The notes below the pieces were generated by a model. The model saw only the letters and a program-made list of their open reading frames with translations. It was not told the origin of the DNA and did no database searches. DNA of 60,756 nt, taken from positions 1 through 60,756 of the forward strand of contig JAPTWT010000012.1 of the NCBI GenBank assembly GCA_028064935.1. The letters are read 5' to 3'. Within the stretch, counting starts at the first letter, position 1. Each line of letters starts with the position of its first letter. The position numbers were made by a program, and so were the translations under genes. Shown here piece after piece: positions 38,094 through 44,824 of the stretch. Origin of the DNA: Gammaproteobacteria bacterium. Lineage in GTDB: Bacteria; Pseudomonadota; Gammaproteobacteria; Acidiferrobacterales; Acidiferrobacteraceae.

Positions 38094-39083
38094 TCACGTT
38101 CCGTCGTCGATTCCGACGCGCGCCACCAGCTCACGGACCAGTCGTTCGAAGTCCTCGCGGCATTGCATAACGCTTGCTTGGTGCGCCCCTATGGCGCCAT
38201 CGGCGGGTTTTAAGGCGAACATCGGCTTGCGCGCCTCCATGGCCATTGGCATCAGGCTGCGATAGTGCTTTATGCGCTGAATCTGGTTGGGGTCGGTCCC
38301 GGGCGCGTGTGTGAGCAAGGGCTCGCCCAGCACGCTCTCGCGATAGGCGATCGGCAGGCGATTTTGCCATTTGGCGTAGGCCTTGGTGGGACGCCCTAAA
38401 CGTTCGGCGTGCTGCATCAAGACATAGCCAGCGGGCATCATGCGGCCCGATGGCGTTTCGCCTATGGCCGTGGGGGCCTTGCCGCGCGCCTCCCCCCACA
38501 TGGTTCGCCATTGACGCAGGATGGGACCGAGGTTCTTCAGGCCCTGGAGAGAGAAAAGATCCGGCGCCACGGGCATGACCACATGGCTTGATGCCACCAG
38601 GGCGGCACGGTTGATCGCCCCGAGATTTGGCCCGACATCGATCAGCACGACGCCCGCCTGGTATTGGGCGGCCGCCTTCCTGATCACGCGCCAGAATGCG
38701 CTGGTTACACGAAAGGCGCGCTCCTGGCCCAATACGCATCGTGGCCACTCGGTCGACAGGTCATCCTCGATCCGCGACAAGGCCAGATCGCCCACCAAGA
38801 GCCCCAGGCTGTCCGACAGCGCCTCGACATGCGCAGCCCCGATGTCGCCCGTTCCGCCAAACAACGGGTTCACCGCTCCGAACAGGGTTTGCGGATGATC
38901 CCCCTCGGGCCACAGCGCCTCCAGGCGCTCCTCGTCCAGGGCCATGATCGAGAGGTTCGATTGCGGATCGAGATCGACGGCCAATACCCGGTAGCCGAGT
39001 TCGGTGAACATCCAGGCCGCATGATAGACAAGCGATGTCTTCCCGACACCACCCTTGTTATTGAAAAACGCGATGCTATGCAT
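38094..39083 (-). CDS. ParA/MinD-type ATPase (second, accessory)
   Basis: A 329-aa deviant Walker ATPase, not the chromosomal ParA. IAFFNNKGGVGKTSLVYHAAW at the N terminus is the P-loop, with AVDLDPQSNLSIM near residue 35 and the Walker B-like GVVLIDVGPNLGAINRAALVAS near 142. The C-terminal half (for example MQHAERLGRPTKAYAKW) differs from partition ATPases. It has no ParB partner; its start overlaps the end of the AlbA_2/ATPase gene by eight bases, so the two are co-translated. Function unknown; the pairing suggests a mobile or defence-type module. Confidence 0.85.
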   Translation of the reverse strand: MHSIAFFNNKGGVGKTSLVYHAAWMFTELGYRVLAVDLDPQSNLSIMALDEERLEALWPEGDHPQTLFGAVNPLFGGTGDIGAAHVEALSDSLGLLVGDLALSRIEDDLSTEWPRCVLGQERAFRVTSAFWRVIRKAAAQYQAGVVLIDVGPNLGAINRAALVASSHVVMPVAPDLFSLQGLKNLGPILRQWRTMWGEARGKAPTAIGETPSGRMMPAGYVLMQHAERLGRPTKAYAKWQNRLPIAYRESVLGEPLLTHAPGTDPNQIQRIKHYRSLMPMAMEARKPMFALKPADGAIGAHQASVMQCREDFERLVRELVARVGIDDGT

Positions 39084-40278
39084 GACCGTCCCCCTGAAGG
39101 ACGATGGCAGCTACGAATCCTGATTGAACCTCGAAGCGCAGTCGGGCACCCAAGGCCTTGCGAGCGATGGCAATGCCGGCGCCGAATCGTTGCACGAAAC
39201 CCAGGGCGCGTAGCGCCTCGGCGAGATTGGGGTTGCGATAGTCCGTGATTCCCGGCTGGCCGAAGTTATCCGGGGTCACGCACCCGAAGGGCCCTCCGGG
39301 GTTGTGGATCTCCAGACGATCGTCGAACCAGTAGACGCGCACAGGCGCGTTTGTCGCTTCGTAACTGCGATGCATGAAGGCGTTGCGCGTCAGCTGGCGC
39401 AAGGCGTCCACGGGATAAATCTCGGCTCGTGACTCGAGGTCCACATCCGTGAATCGTACCCTGCGCCGGTTATGTGTCTCGAGCTTTTCCTCCAGGCGCC
39501 GGATTTGATCCGCCACCGTGCCGTAAATCGCGGCTTCATCTTCCACGGTTGCCGTCAAATCGCGCCCCGCAATCCGCAAGAATTGCGTATAGGCCCCTGG
39601 CAGCCAGTCGGCCGGAGATTTCCCGATCACGAGCATGCCCAGCACCGTAGGACGGGTCCCCTTGTCCGCCACCATTTTCGTGGCAGCCAGGCGCTGCTCG
39701 CGGCTGCGCTCGTTGGCGGCGAGCACATCGGGGGCGACCGCCGACGGCAGGTACTCCTGTTCGAAGCGCAGGAGATCGAGGTCGTCAAGGGTCGCTTCCG
39801 GTAGAGGCTGGGCGTCAAATGGCAGGTCGCGATAACGGCGGCGCTCGTTAAGGATGCGCTCGTCCTGCGCGCTAGCCAAGCCGCGCCTCGGCCCCCAGCG
39901 GACATGGATTCGTCCCTTGTAGCGCGTGGGGGGCGTATGGCAAGGCCATACCGTAATGACCGCCACGTCATGACCTCCCAGCGATCGTTTTTCCACGAGC
40001 AGGCTCGGAGGTGGCACAATATTACCGTCGGATTTGATATCCGCGAGCTGGCGAAGCAGCTCGTCGCTTATCTCAAGCCCAGTCGCTGTGCCGTCGTCTC
40101 CCACGCCCACGAACACGACACCTGGCTCGCCATGGCCCGCCAGATCGTTGGCAAAGGCGCACACCGCCTCGCGCACCGCCTGTGGCGCCCCGCCTTTCAG
40201 GGACTCCTTACGTTCCACACGGTCCGACTCGGGGTCGGCCAGCATGGTGGCGAGCACGCCATCGCTATAGGTTTTCAT
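39076..40278 (-). CDS. AlbA_2 (Schlafen-like) and HATPase domain protein
   Basis: A 400-aa protein. The N-terminal third has the AlbA_2 pattern (RVERKESLKGG, AVCAFANDLAGH, GVVFVGVGDDGTATG), related to Schlafen nucleic-acid-binding domains. The C-terminal part is a GHKL-type ATPase: LTRNAFMHRSY (N box), RLEIHNPGGPFG (G1) and FVQRFGAGIAIARKAL (G2). Such proteins are common in accessory DNA and are often labelled as transcriptional regulators or RecG-like helicases. I chose ATG 40278 since the AlbA_2 domain begins about 20 residues in; the frame is open upstream without homology. Overlaps the accessory ParA gene. Confidence 0.85.
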   Translation of the reverse strand: MKTYSDGVLATMLADPESDRVERKESLKGGAPQAVREAVCAFANDLAGHGEPGVVFVGVGDDGTATGLEISDELLRQLADIKSDGNIVPPPSLLVEKRSLGGHDVAVITVWPCHTPPTRYKGRIHVRWGPRRGLASAQDERILNERRRYRDLPFDAQPLPEATLDDLDLLRFEQEYLPSAVAPDVLAANERSREQRLAATKMVADKGTRPTVLGMLVIGKSPADWLPGAYTQFLRIAGRDLTATVEDEAAIYGTVADQIRRLEEKLETHNRRRVRFTDVDLESRAEIYPVDALRQLTRNAFMHRSYEATNAPVRVYWFDDRLEIHNPGGPFGCVTPDNFGQPGITDYRNPNLAEALRALGFVQRFGAGIAIARKALGARLRFEVQSGFVAAIVLQGDGHA

Positions 40279-40711
40279 AAGTCCGTACCCTCGATAGAGG
40301 GGGATCCAACAGCTAGCCGAGCCTCGTTTCCGGTCCTCACCCCCACATTCCTTAGACGACGGCTCGGCGCGAAGCGCCTGATCCTCCGAAGGAAGCGCCA
40401 AGGCGCTAGCTAGTGGCGCCATCATAGCAAAGCTTGACCGTCGTCTCTCGGACCAAGACCGAAGACCGGAAAGGGTCCACAGCAAAGGCCGGGCTCTCCG
40501 CGGGGCGACAATCAACGGCCGGATCACTGCCTCTGTGTGATGCGAATCAGCCGCCACCTCCACGCCATGCCAATGGGCGACGAACACGCATGATGTGGTT
40601 GTCACGGCCCTCAAAGGAGTGGCCCTGTGGTCTGCCAGGCTCCTCCGACATGCTAAAGGCCTGTGTCCGATCCCCTCCGCGGTTCCTGGTTGACCCACAC
40701 CTCTAATAAAA
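40279..40711. other. Non-coding stretch between the AlbA_2 gene and vapC
   Basis: No recognised gene. It must contain the promoter of the AlbA_2-ParA pair, which reads toward lower coordinates, but I see no convincing hexamers. The frame of the AlbA_2 gene stays open through most of it without family similarity. Confidence 0.45.
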
Positions 40712-41425
40712 CTAACATCGCGCCATTACGTCCCCCCGTCCGCCCCTGCTTGTCCGGCCTTTGTCGACGACAAACATATTCTGGCGGGTAAAAAGCAAAG
40801 CCCGCAGCCTTTTCCAATAACAAGGAGAATCGGAGGCATCGACCCATCCGCCGGAAACGGCGGTCCCGGAAGATGCTTCCCTGTGGATGCCGCGCGTTCC
40901 CTTAAGCCCCGCTGGGCGGTCTGCGGCGCGTTGATTGCCATGGGAAATCCCGCATGCCGCGTCCTGAATACCGACATTCAGGGCCTCCATGGGTTGCTCG
41001 CGTACCGCCTTGCGCGGCCTCGCGTCCCGGGGCCCTTGCCTGCGCTTAGCCCGGGTCTTTTGCCGGTAATGAACGCCAGGCAGACCCGCAAAACCCGCAT
41101 CCAGTGTCCACGCTTCGGCCCCGTGGTAACGTGCGGTGGCCAGGACCACCGCGTCGGCCAGGGGCCGCTTGTGCATAATGCCAAGCCGGCGCGGCCTCCA
41201 GCGCCGGTCCGCGGTGAGCTCCGCCACTATCCCTGCCCGCATGAGCGAAACGGCCGGCAGTGCCTGACCGACATCGTGCTGCTGCGCGACGCGCTCAAAG
41301 ACCTCAAGAAGGCATATCGTCGGGACGACCCGCCGTTTTGTATCGCATAGGGCGGGCGCGAAAAACTCGGCCTGCTCGCCGCCCGCAAAGTATTCGAGCC
41401 AGCCGCAGGGATCCACCACATTCAC
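40712..41425 (-). CDS. VapC-like PIN domain toxin, probably decayed
   Basis: The first 120 or so residues are a PIN domain: MNVVDPCGWLEYF, VPTICLLEVFERV, PLADAVVLATARYHGAEAWTLDAGFAGLPGVHY. Acidic residues D5, E41, D91 and D109 are kept, though the second aspartate of the usual DADF motif is glycine. Residues 73-78 read DRRWRP; shifting the frame over this short stretch gives the expected ALEAA helix, so two compensating indels are likely. No stop follows the PIN core, and the frame runs on to 237 aa with unrelated sequence. The start is GTG, overlapping the last codon of the broken antitoxin frame. VapC proteins are tRNA- or rRNA-cutting RNases; this one may be inactive. Confidence 0.7.
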   Translation of the reverse strand: MNVVDPCGWLEYFAGGEQAEFFAPALCDTKRRVVPTICLLEVFERVAQQHDVGQALPAVSLMRAGIVAELTADRRWRPRRLGIMHKRPLADAVVLATARYHGAEAWTLDAGFAGLPGVHYRQKTRAKRRQGPRDARPRKAVREQPMEALNVGIQDAACGISHGNQRAADRPAGLKGTRGIHREASSGTAVSGGWVDASDSPCYWKRLRALLFTRQNMFVVDKGRTSRGGRGDVMARC

Positions 41426-41622
41426 GTCCGGTCCTCATCCCTCGGTGCGGTGGTTCAAGAGGCCCGAGGAAGCCGCGCATCTCGCGGATATCGCTCGGGG
41501 AGGAGCTCCACGCGTCCTTCATAGACCAGAACGCGCAGGCTCTGGCCGGGGCGGGTGCCGAGCGCGGCCCGGGCCTCGGGAACAACGATCTGATACTTTT
41601 CCGAGACCGTGACCGCTGTCAT
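41422..41622 (-). pseudogene. VapB-like (AbrB/SpoVT type) antitoxin, frameshifted
   Basis: The first frame encodes MTAVTVSEKYQIVVPEARAA and then LGTRPGQSLRVLVYEGRVELLPER, the swapped-hairpin AbrB fold, with one codon missing in the usual PxxVR motif. After that, the family ending is split over the other two frames: IREMRGFLGPLE in one and TTAPRDEDRT with a stop in the third, the stop overlapping the vapC start (GTGA). Two frameshifts therefore separate three recognisable parts of one antitoxin. As written, the open frame ends early at about 41455. Confidence 0.75.
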
Positions 41623-41868
41623 GCTAAGCCCCGATCGATAGGCAACTCGTAAAGCATACGATTGCCGCTGGGTAAGGTCAAAGGGCGACCTCTTCCAGTA
41701 CGCGGTAATGGGATGGTCGCCCCACCGATCGGCACCAAGGTGCCGAAGTCGAGCGTCCAAGCCACAGCTGGTTGGACGGGGGTCACCGTCCTGTTGTGCG
41801 GGGATCGGAAAGATCCGGTGTCTTCGCCTTGATCGGGGCGGCAGGGCCTTGCCGGACCTTTAGGCGCG

Positions 41869-42564
41869 TTATTTCTTCACCTCGCCCTTGAGGCGTTCGA
41901 GTTCCGCGTCCACCGCACCGCCCGAGCGCAGTTTGTCGAGTTCGCGTTCGCTCTGCGAGCGGTCGTCGCCGTCATCCAGGACCCCGCTATCGGCCAGCGT
42001 GTCGACCGCCTGGGCGCGGGCCTGCATTTGTTCGGTCTTGTCCTTGGCGCGGCGCACGCTCTCGCCCACGCCGCCCAGCTTATCGCTCAGGCCCGACAGC
42101 GATTCGTTGACCTTCACCTGGGCCTCGGCGCTGCCGTACTGGCTCTTCAGGACCTCTTTCTGGGTACGGAAGGTATCGATCTTGTCCTGGAATTTGTGCT
42201 CGTATTCGACGAGTTTTTGGACTTGCGCTGCGATGTTGTCGTGGGCCTCGGTGAGCGACGCGAGCTTCACGGTCGCGGCCTGCTTTTGGGTGAGCGCGGC
42301 GCGCGCCAAGTCCTCGCGGTTCGATTGCAGGGCAAGCCGGGCATCGCCGTCGTGGCGCGTGATCTCGGCCTGCGCGGCCGCCATCTGTTGCTCCAGGACC
42401 TTTTGCTCGGTGACGACATCGGCGAGATGGCGGCGGGTCTCCTGGAGGCCGGCGAGCATCTTTTCGTAGGAGAGGTCGAGGGTGTCGTTCGGGTCCTCGG
42501 CGGCATTGATGATCTTGCTGAACTTGGCCTCTATGACCTCGGCCGCGCGCTTGAAAAGACTCAT
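41869..42564 (-). CDS. pspA: PspA/IM30 family protein
   Basis: A 231-aa, almost wholly helical coiled-coil protein of the PspA/Vipp1 family, which binds stressed inner membranes. SLFKRAAEVIEAKFSKIINAAEDP at the N terminus is the amphipathic helix and start of the coiled coil, and MLAGLQETRRHLADVV follows as the conserved hairpin. The C-terminal part (SERELDKLRSGGAVDAELERLKGE) is the short tail typical of genomes without pspBC. It is the last gene of a four-gene minus-strand operon with two YbjQ-type proteins, 16 bases after the nearer one. No pspF is seen. Confidence 0.9.
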   Translation of the reverse strand: MSLFKRAAEVIEAKFSKIINAAEDPNDTLDLSYEKMLAGLQETRRHLADVVTEQKVLEQQMAAAQAEITRHDGDARLALQSNREDLARAALTQKQAATVKLASLTEAHDNIAAQVQKLVEYEHKFQDKIDTFRTQKEVLKSQYGSAEAQVKVNESLSGLSDKLGGVGESVRRAKDKTEQMQARAQAVDTLADSGVLDDGDDRSQSERELDKLRSGGAVDAELERLKGEVKK

Positions 42565-42580
42565 GGGGAAACCTCCCTGC

Positions 42581-43405
42581 CTAATCGTTTACTGGTATGA
42601 CAATCTGCGGGACCAGTCGTTCAGGGATGATGGCCGCATCTTCTATGGGCTTGACCGCCGTGCCGATGGCGAAGAACTCGATCACGTGCGGCTGCCAGTT
42701 GTGCGAGCCCTCGTGGAGCTGGACTGCGACCACCCCTTCGGCGCCGGCCTCCTTGGCTTCTTGCTGCATGCGCTCCATGGCCAGTTCGCGGGCATCGTAC
42801 ATGGCCTGGGTGAAGAGCGGCATCTCGACATTGCGGCCGACATTGCCAAGCGACTGGAACATGCCTTGATGGGCGACGTGGTACACGCAGGAGCCCATAA
42901 CCAGGGCGAGCGGCCGGTAGCCGGACTGCAGCAGCATCCAGAGATCCTGGCCCGACAGGTCGGACGTAAAGGGCTTGCCGGACGGACCCTTGAAGCCGGG
43001 GTGGCCTTTGCTATGGGCGATGGCCGTGCCGATGGCCAGGAACTCGAGGATATCCTTGTCCCAGTCCATGCGTTTGACCTCCAGGCGCACGCCCACCACG
43101 CCGTCCGCCGACAACGACTGCGCCTCCTGCTCCATGCGCGTCATGGCCAGCTCCCGGGCCTCGTACATGGCCTGCGATAGCACCGCCATCTCCTGATTCT
43201 TGGCCCAGCCGGCATACTGGATGCCGGTGTGATAGATGCACGAGCCCACCACCAGGCCGAGCGGCTCGAAGCCGGCCTCGCCCACCATGAGAAATTCGTT
43301 GACCGAGAAGTCGGAGGTGAAGATGCCGCCCCGGCGGCTCGTGTCGCGCAGGCCCTCCAGGCGCTCGCGCGCATGTTGCGGCAGATCGGGGACTGTATCG
43401 CTCAT
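42581..43405 (-). CDS. Tandem YbjQ-like (DUF74) domain protein
   Basis: A 274-aa protein with two copies of a YbjQ/heavy-metal-binding-type domain: first copy around residues 45-130 (EPLGLVVGSCIYH, QAMYEARELAMTRMEQEAQSLSADGVVGVRLE, EFLAIGTAI) and second around 155-255 (RPLALVMGSCVYH, QAMYDARELAMERMQQEAKEAGAEGVVAVQL, EFFAIGTAV). Single-domain YbjQ proteins are about 110 aa and form rings of five. The metal role is only inferred in the family. It begins two bases after the upstream YbjQ-like gene. Confidence 0.85.
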   Translation of the reverse strand: MSDTVPDLPQHARERLEGLRDTSRRGGIFTSDFSVNEFLMVGEAGFEPLGLVVGSCIYHTGIQYAGWAKNQEMAVLSQAMYEARELAMTRMEQEAQSLSADGVVGVRLEVKRMDWDKDILEFLAIGTAIAHSKGHPGFKGPSGKPFTSDLSGQDLWMLLQSGYRPLALVMGSCVYHVAHQGMFQSLGNVGRNVEMPLFTQAMYDARELAMERMQQEAKEAGAEGVVAVQLHEGSHNWQPHVIEFFAIGTAVKPIEDAAIIPERLVPQIVIPVND

Positions 43406-43407
43406 TG

Positions 43408-44307
43408 TTACAGGACCTCCCTTACGGTGTTGGTGGCGGCCAGCAGCCGCGGGTTGCGCACGCTCGTCACCGGGCGCACGCCGAACGGGCGTAGCGTGCG
43501 GCTATCGTGGAGGATGGCGGTGCCGAGCGCGATATAGCGCGCGAGGAAGCGCGGGTAGGGGTTGTTCTCGTCGGGCTCCACGCGGTAGAGCTCGGTATGC
43601 TGGGTGTGGGCAAGCACGCCCGAGCCCAGGCGCACGCCGTCATCGCGTAGCTCCTGCAGGGCCTGGCGGCGCACGCGTGTCAGGAAACTCGAAAGCGGGG
43701 CGATCTCCTGGTTCCAGAAAGAGGCCGCGTTCGCTGTCTGATAGCCATTCGCCACGAACCAATCGTAATGGGCGCCGATGGCAAGCCCGACGGGCACGAT
43801 GCCGGATTCGAGCAGGCGCGCGAACTCCAGGGCGGAGACCGTGGCGAGCGCCGGATTGGTGGACTCGCGCAGCCTGTCCAGGCGCACGGCCGTGCCCATG
43901 ACGCCATAGTCCATGTGGCCTTCATTCTCGGTGCCCGGCATGCGCCGCACGCGCAGGGTGACGTCCACGACCGCATTGGCGCCCATGAGCCCAGCCTCCA
44001 CGCGCAGGCGGTCGAGCGCCGTGTGCCAGCCCTCGTAATGGCCGCGTGTCCAGGAATAGCCGAACTGGAACCAGCAGTTGCCGGAGACGAGCCCGAGCGG
44101 GCGGATGCCGTGGGAGCGCTGCGCCAATAGGCCCGCGGGCGAGGCGGTGCTGACCCAGGGCCGCTTGCCGGTCATGGTCTCGGCGAGCCGCTCCTTCACG
44201 AAGGCTGGCACCGTGCCGCGCGTGAGCGCCTCGTTCCAGGCCGTCTGCCGGGCAAGTGACCCCGCGTCGTCCTGGGCGCTACCACTGGGTGGACCGAAGC
44301 GGGCCAT
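43408..44307 (-). CDS. YbjQ-like domain protein, divergent tandem copy
   Basis: A 299-aa protein related to its neighbour. RPLGLVSGNCWFQFGYSW and LRVEAGLMGANAVVDVTLRV near residues 70-120, then VMGTAVRLD, form one YbjQ-like unit; VPVGLAIGAHYDWFV, RRQALQELRDDGVRLGSGVL and YIALGTAIL near 170-275 form a second. The hallmark (GL.xG, helical repeat, GTA) is kept while the cysteine in GSC is changed to N or H. An N-terminal 60 residues are extra. Spacing of eight bases from the unknown gene upstream places it in the same operon. Confidence 0.75.
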   Translation of the reverse strand: MARFGPPSGSAQDDAGSLARQTAWNEALTRGTVPAFVKERLAETMTGKRPWVSTASPAGLLAQRSHGIRPLGLVSGNCWFQFGYSWTRGHYEGWHTALDRLRVEAGLMGANAVVDVTLRVRRMPGTENEGHMDYGVMGTAVRLDRLRESTNPALATVSALEFARLLESGIVPVGLAIGAHYDWFVANGYQTANAASFWNQEIAPLSSFLTRVRRQALQELRDDGVRLGSGVLAHTQHTELYRVEPDENNPYPRFLARYIALGTAILHDSRTLRPFGVRPVTSVRNPRLLAATNTVREVL

Positions 44308-44315
44308 AATGCCTC

Positions 44316-44702
44316 CTATGACGTCAGAAAGTCTTGCAGGATCCCGCGCGCACCTTCCAGGCTCCCCGACAGCCGCCGCAGCTCGTCTTCCAGGTCTTGC
44401 AGCCAGCGGTCGAGCGGAAGGGATTCGGTCTTCAGCACCACGCCGCGCACCTCGTGCTGACGGCTTGCGCGGACATCATGATCGTGGGCATCCAGGAGGT
44501 AGCGGCTGCCGTCGACCTGGATGGTGATCGCGATTACGTGGCGGGTTGCGCTCAGCAGGCCGTCGCGCTTGCGTTCCACCTGGACGCGCCCCGGGAGCGC
44601 GCCCTCGAGGCGCGTGGCGAGGGCCTCCAGGAAGGCATGGAGGTCGGTTTGCGCCCGGCGGATCCAGGCGGCATGGAGATCGAAATCACGGATTTCGTCC
44701 AT
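44316..44702 (-). CDS. Conserved-looking protein of unknown function, first gene of the pspA operon
   Basis: A 128-aa protein. I see no membrane segment or signal. The N-terminal half is helical (DLHAAWIRRAQTDLHAFLEALATRLEGAL), the middle forms beta strands (RHVIAITIQVDGSRYLLDAHD, EVRGVVLKTESL) and the end is helical (RWLQDLEDELRRLSGSLE). ATG 44702 is chosen because the helix starts there; a TTG further upstream is possible. It opens the operon that runs through two YbjQ-type genes to pspA, divergent from uvrD with about 120 bp between. Function unknown. Confidence 0.7.
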   Translation of the reverse strand: MDEIRDFDLHAAWIRRAQTDLHAFLEALATRLEGALPGRVQVERKRDGLLSATRHVIAITIQVDGSRYLLDAHDHDVRASRQHEVRGVVLKTESLPLDRWLQDLEDELRRLSGSLEGARGILQDFLTS

Positions 44703-44824
44703 GAGATACCCAAAAATACGCAACCCCGCTAGTTGACACCACTTGCGCGGTCATTGCAATGCGCAAAGCCGAGACCCCGCCTGTCACGGTTTCCCGCGCC
44801 TGGCCCGCGGGTTACACTCGCGCC

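Follow-up and report, generated by a model that had tools for sequence, protein, structure and literature searches.

PspA is said, in the title of Kobayashi 2007, to repair proton leakage in Escherichia coli. How PspA-type ESCRT-III coats are controlled without the classical partners is an open question, and so is the role of the YbjQ proteins. In passages of two reviews, PspA is named as a proton-exclusion protein of acidophiles (PMC11471286) and described as increased at low pH in Acidithiobacillus caldus (PMC8425152, citing Mangold 2013), and part of PMC11237479 proposes that PspA has partners resembling chaperones in other systems. YbjQ and DUF74 proteins are described as pentamers that have their fold in common with the envelope-stress sensor RcsF (excerpt of PMC4092069). 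Here, we analyze a locus in which these families meet: four genes, which we call U, YD, YT and pspA, in a stretch of 60,756 nucleotides (contig JAPTWT010000012.1, assembly GCA_028064935.1; hereafter the window) from a gammaproteobacterium of the Acidiferrobacteraceae. The four genes recur as a unit in other genomes and may constitute an acid-adapted envelope-stress module of the phage shock protein (PSP) type.

RESULTS

The genes U, YD, YT and pspA run head to tail from 44702 to 41869, separated by 8, 2 and 16 bases, and the positions of the open reading frames (ORFs) thus bear out the arrangement of four minus-strand genes described in the first-pass annotation of this DNA. The unit and its parts are as follows:

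44730..44759, minus strand: promoter-like element TTGCAAT-N13-GTGTCAACTA, 27 bases before U
44316..44702, minus strand: U, 128 amino acids, of an unnamed family, first of the four genes
43408..44307, minus strand: YD, 299 amino acids, divergent, with two YbjQ-type domains (PF01906, E = 1.4e-6)
43879..44151, minus strand: first YbjQ domain of YD, residues 53-143
43504..43845, minus strand: second YbjQ-type domain of YD, residues 155-268, recognized by profile comparison with the YT domains and by predicted structure only
42581..43405, minus strand: YT, 274 amino acids, with two clear YbjQ domains at about residues 25-135 and 141-258 (PF01906, E = 2.2e-23, two stretches)
42686..42889, minus strand: stretch of YT domain 2 with C173, H176, H179, H235, W237 and H240
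41869..42564, minus strand: PspA/IM30-family protein, 231 amino acids, with an amphipathic first helix (PF04012, 104.3 bits)

The four genes had been proposed to belong to one shared system, and U and YbjQ genes were indeed found beside pspA elsewhere, as a conserved unit, in 16 of the 20 loci obtained from a scan of named genomes for the U family, in 15 of the 15 loci fetched from the family of genome G1257, and in one further locus, L064 (genome G511), making 32 four-gene loci besides the window. Among the loci from named genomes, twelve of Acidiferrobacteraceae type (L011-L022) and one of Hyphomicrobiales have the gene order of the window, and three of Acidiphilium type hold the full set in the order YT-PspA-U-YD; of the remaining ones, L027 and L029 combine U with two tandem-YbjQ genes and no pspA seen beside them, and L028 and L030 end just past U. 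The named close homologues of the window's U are from Acidiferrobacter, and the nearest genome compared has 93% of sampled words in common with the window, whose genome is Acidiferrobacter-like.

YT was found in at least 3 of 321 genomes of the window's class, two being relatives of Acidiferrobacter and the third G1257, which belongs to another family. In that family, 26 of 29 genomes have YT, and exactly these also have PspA, both being missing from G1319, G1320 and G1321; in 25 of them, PspA follows YT after 17-45 bases, and the two lie on separate contigs in G1323, a genome that is 69% complete. The 15 loci were taken from these 26 genomes, and one of them, L085, has U behind pspA, so that here, as in the Acidiphilium-type loci, the order varies and the set is kept. 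Because YT of seven of these loci is 88-100% identical (rounded) to four named proteins of Acidithiobacillus and Igneacidithiobacillus, the closest pair being YT of L085 and an A. sulfuriphilus protein that rounds to 100% and is not letter-identical, we take the G1257 family to be Acidithiobacillaceae. YD occurs in at least 2 of 397 genomes of the phylum and at least 2 of 289 genomes of the class to which the Acidiphilium genome G459 belongs; these counts and that of YT are minimum values, few candidates having been scored in each genome. Among the matches listed, the named relatives of YT or YD come from Acidithiobacillus, Acidiphilium, Acidihalobacter and Thiomonas, and also from Dyella, Rhodanobacter and Streptomyces, and these organism names give the impression of a unit found mostly in acidophile lineages. 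As a side observation, L064 (4925-11151) contains two genes of YD type, and additional tandem-YbjQ genes separate its U from YD.

Presence of PspA goes together with presence of the unit. Among the 31 genomes nearest to the window, U was found in 17, and a PspA above the cut-off in 16 of these and in a single one of the 14 others; the one U genome lacking such a PspA, G011, has only a partial U match of 35 residues. When pooled with the G1257 family, the proportions are 42/43 vs 1/17 (Fisher p 2e-12, related genomes not being independent trials).

The PspA of the window passes the PF04012 gathering cut-off (33.9 bits) over residues 2-228, aligns with solved Vipp1/PspA chains over residues 1-226, and its hydrophobic moment peaks at residues 4-21 (0.54), that is, in an amphipathic N-terminal helix; at 93.6 bits, it does not reach the cut-off of 242.95 bits for TIGR02977, the PspA equivalog of E. 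coli type. In a tree of 41 PspA sequences (33 operon copies, four actinobacterial and four canonical ones), for which the program warned of long branches, the operon copies lie on one side of a branch with modest support (66/83), the four actinobacterial sequences are nearest to them (97/85), and the four canonical ones, three of which are second copies in Acidiphilium-type genomes, are distant (100/100). Operon PspA is therefore apart from canonical PspA even inside the three Acidiphilium-type genomes, all of which have PspC within about 400 bases of the canonical pspA and, for that reason, harbor two coexisting systems. The actinobacterial PspAs (146-174 bits against that of the window) were considered as a special partner of the unit and set aside as the ordinary PspA of that group, because genes like PspAA/PspAB, candidate names taken from passages of PMC11237479, adjoin them. 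The absence of pspC noted at the locus in the first-pass annotation holds genome-wide for all 12 genomes tested from the two main families, and PspC is also absent from G460 and G511; neither PspF nor PspB is among the ten window ORFs scanned, no genome-wide search for them having been made.

Both YbjQ proteins exceed the PF01906 gathering cut-off of 23 bits, YT with 83.3 and YD with 29.3 bits. The two halves of YT are alike in profile comparison (E = 1.6e-41), and the model of YD (mean predicted local distance difference test score, pLDDT, 76.3) shows a second YbjQ-type domain, which agrees with the four domain copies counted earlier, two clear ones in YT and two in YD. Ring formation by single-copy relatives, also mentioned at first pass, is in line with the pentamers described for solved YbjQ relatives in part of PMC4092069. 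Since two relatives of YT, P0206 (386 amino acids) and P0277 (377 amino acids), have three YbjQ domains per chain as read from the alignment, the number per chain is variable. Over the 19 loci compared, YT is the best conserved member (57-99% identity), vs U, whose identity drops to 28%. In an alignment of 149 YT sequences, near-copies included, residues C173, H176, H235, W237 and H240 of domain 2 are present in all 149 and H179 in 145, and in domain 1, H59 is found in 148 and C56 in 135; the solved YbjQ chains that were aligned have a hairpin without matching His. This Cys/His set may bind metal, and the strand-helix-strand order suggests that its residues could meet in space. The charge of YD was ruled out as a common trait, isoelectric points ranging from 5.7 to 9.8 across 30 sequences. 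A very weak match (E = 0.17) between YT of a Streptomyces plasmid (L061:6881-7672) and the YbjQ-like domain of eukaryotic C2CD5 (PF23025) was also seen, and perhaps reflects a mere fold in common.

The 128-amino-acid protein U, labeled unknown at first pass, keeps that status, with no family match in Pfam or NCBIfam, and has 71 homologues. Its predicted fold starts with a helix, continues with a meander of five strands and ends in two helices (mean pLDDT 81.4); the model has no clear relative among PDB structures, and profile comparison finds U unrelated to YbjQ domains. Members of the CesT/Tir family were not matched in Pfam by any of 34 U proteins, nor are they listed in the structure comparisons, exclusion not being given thereby; the predicted order of strands and helices in U is unlike the CesT order. 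No membrane-span-like stretch occurs in U, YD, YT or PspA, the most hydrophobic 19 residues among the four averaging just 1.39, and we therefore reject the channel that had been suggested for this locus.

Upstream of U, the element TTGCAWT-N13-GTGTCAACTW is found in 13 of 13 Acidiferrobacteraceae-type regions, that of the window included, at 24-34 bases before the gene, with a mean column conservation of 86% and of 49% and 58% in the flanks. Its core pattern occurs exactly once, before U, in seven of nine genomes searched, and is absent from G015, which has U, and G016, which does not. The upstream region of the window's U is common to a divergent helicase gene, and the element was assigned to U because of its distance. 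In the G1257 family, GAAC-N16..18-GTC precedes U in 14 of 15 upstream regions (N17 in 13 and N18 in one), a pattern present on average in 2.4% of shuffled upstream sequences; in L085, which has U as its last gene, YD is preceded by a similar GGAACTATCGT...GACTCTC that falls outside the GAAC/GTC pattern. RpoE-dependent promoters of Shewanella have the form GAAC...GTC, one reading GAACTA...GGTC (part of PMC4336711), and the element of the G1257 family suggests a promoter of RpoE or extracytoplasmic function (ECF) type. The operon of the window is preceded by the other, promoter-like element.

In eleven loci, U and tandem-YbjQ genes occur with no pspA seen beside them: seven of Actinomycetota, two on Streptomyces linear plasmids, G171 and L029. 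U is present in 7 of 246 genomes of the phylum of G461 (seed included), which is Actinomycetota by the L027 record, and all seven loci have at least two tandem-YbjQ genes beside U, L068 ending 140 bases after YT. On each of the two plasmids, two tandem-YbjQ genes stand in a row with U, and G171, of the Pseudomonadota, has U-YD-YT; except in G171, the partner YbjQ gene at these loci is outside the YD subfamily. PspA is encoded elsewhere in nine of nine searched genomes with the unit and no adjacent pspA, the two plasmid hosts being outside the search. The pairing with pspA proposed at first pass is thus upheld as linkage in the 32 four-gene loci and fails as an obligatory one, since these eleven loci show that PspA is not essential to the unit. 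Inspection of the 30 largest homology groups, drawn from 25 loci, revealed no further conserved neighbor. On the two plasmids (L061:5971-8057 and L062:5956-8057), an unidentified gene coding for 212 and 224 amino acids, respectively, lies upstream of the row.

Downstream of pspA, the window has a VapBC-like toxin-antitoxin pair (the first two entries) and two further genes:

41455-41760, minus strand: MazE/AbrB-like ORF (PF04014, E = 2.4e-4, below the family cut-off)
40712-41425, minus strand: PIN-domain ORF (PF01850, E = 2.6e-5)
39076-40698, minus strand: Schlafen/AlbA_2 protein with a RecG-type C-terminal domain
38094-39083, minus strand: ParA-like ATPase

DISCUSSION

We propose that U, YD, YT and PspA form an acid-adapted, PSP-type envelope-stress module because PspA has been tied to proton exclusion and low pH, and YbjQ relatives form pentamers with the fold of RcsF. 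The linkage of the four genes through changes of order, the matching distribution of YT and PspA in the G1257 family, the separate grouping of the operon PspAs, the missing PspC, the promoter elements and the lack of membrane spans also speak for it. In such a module, PspA would coat the inner membrane and seal it against proton leak, while YT and YD, having no membrane span, would form cytosolic, pentamer-derived and perhaps two-layered rings through their tandem YbjQ domains. U could be the adaptor between these rings and PspA, and rings and adaptor together would control the assembly or disassembly of the PspA polymer, acting as a cytosolic scaffold or regulator that replaces PspF, PspB and PspC; a putative metal-, pH- or redox-dependent switch would be provided by the Cys/His residues that are invariant in YT. 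The membrane-stress assembly envisaged in the first-pass annotation stays a putative one, supported in part by its conserved unit, its pentameric relatives and an envelope-stress role that fits the presence of PspA and the RpoE-like promoter of the G1257 family, and is to be abandoned as regards the channel and an obligatory pspA. An operon in which a PspA of a distinct group is joined by tandem-YbjQ proteins and by an unnamed family offers, in cultivable and non-pathogenic hosts, a genetic handle both on the control of PspA coats and on the role of YbjQ proteins, and the unit may bear on how acidophiles limit proton leak.

Several observations weigh against this proposal. The eleven loci without adjacent pspA show that it is not an obligatory partner of U and the tandem-YbjQ genes. 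Pentamers are known for single-domain relatives, and rings of YT and YD are drawn by analogy; the PspA that rises at low pH in A. caldus may or may not be the operon copy, and eight genomes of the G1257 family encode a further PspA at another place. Dyella, Rhodanobacter and Streptomyces are not known as extreme acidophiles, yet carry relatives. Support for the group of operon PspAs is modest, and its tree has long branches; in the Acidiphilium-type loci, YT is 78% but PspA 46-47% identical to that of the window (73% and 58%, respectively, in L077), which suggests that YT and PspA differ in their histories and argues against strict co-inheritance. We put the chances of an acid-adapted module, slightly lowered for this difference in divergence, at about even.

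The loci with no pspA seen beside the unit would agree with a rival reading in which U, YD and YT form a cytosolic metal- or redox-handling complex and PspA is merely co-transcribed with it in acidophiles, in which acid, metal and membrane stress coincide. The invariance of C173, H176, H235 and H240 in 149 of 149 YT sequences, the conservation of YT as the highest of the four, and the Pfam label of PF01906 as putative heavy-metal-binding point the same way, but metal binding by YT and the closeness of its Cys/His residues are themselves putative, YT and PspA are jointly present or absent in the G1257 family, whose operon has an RpoE-like promoter, and PspA is found elsewhere in all nine searched genomes in which it does not adjoin the unit, though PspA is common in Actinomycetota. 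We regard such a complex as possible, if somewhat doubtful. Clearly unlikely, in our view, is that another envelope process, e.g., protein export or respiratory complexes, has U and the YbjQ proteins as its assembly factors or its regulator, with PspA answering the damage when this process fails; the chaperone-like partners proposed for PspA in part of PMC11237479 would be a precedent, and the client may be encoded elsewhere because no other gene is conserved beside the unit in the 30 homology groups inspected, but no client is known and U has no demonstrated relation to CesT/Tir chaperones. A neighborhood simply carried along by horizontal transfer, without a function common to its genes, would agree with its patchy spread, as seen in the YD and YT counts, and with the relatives on Streptomyces plasmids. 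The set nonetheless survives rearrangement, is kept in 26 of 29 species of the G1257 family and has a conserved promoter element upstream, which makes a passenger highly improbable.

The acid-adapted module can be extended into a bolder proposal, quite doubtful at present, of a self-contained membrane-repair machine in which stacked pentameric discs of tandem-YbjQ proteins, with a Cys/His metal switch and U as adaptor, would detect acidification or the entry of metal once the membrane is damaged, and would seed PspA (ESCRT-III) coats or take them apart; in Actinomycetota, the disc and adaptor unit would work with a PspA encoded elsewhere or with some other partner. If true, it would be an acidophile counterpart of PspF, PspB and PspC and, in part, of the eukaryotic Vps4-type control.

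No report of a linkage between YbjQ and PspA was found in the literature searched, nor in the passages of PMC11237479; the sole paper with both names, as far as its excerpts go, is an E. coli persister proteome that lists YbjQ and PspA in separate tables. A statement in part of PMC7084401 that YbjQ replaces ThiE was set aside; it probably concerns YjbQ, another protein. The classical Psp system of E. coli (pspF-pspABC) resembles the unit in having a PspA/IM30 gene with partner genes and envelope stress as the likely trigger, but the partners here are tandem-YbjQ proteins and U, PspC is found in 0 of 12 genomes, and the promoter suggested for the G1257 family is RpoE-like, vs sigma-54 in E. coli (by the title of a work cited in PMC11237479). 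The CesT/Tir-PspA dyads of YjfI-YjfJ type, as described in passages of the same paper, likewise have a small soluble protein beside pspA; unlike it, U has no Pfam relation to that family (34 members), and the remaining operon genes differ. Actinobacterial PspA-PspAA/PspAB operons, also treated in those passages, encode the PspAs nearest to the operon PspA in our small tree, whereas no YbjQ or U gene was detected in the stretches surrounding these pspA genes (L045, L046, L047 and L049). YT and YD share domain family and fold with YbjQ/UPF0145, the DUF74 pentamers and RcsF (excerpt of PMC4092069), but have two such domains per chain (relatives sometimes three), the Cys/His set of YT and their operon partners; RcsF, in turn, is an outer-membrane lipoprotein, unlike YT and YD, which have no hydrophobic stretch. 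Set against these systems, the unit looks like an undescribed variety of PSP-type membrane-stress system that includes an unnamed protein family, U.

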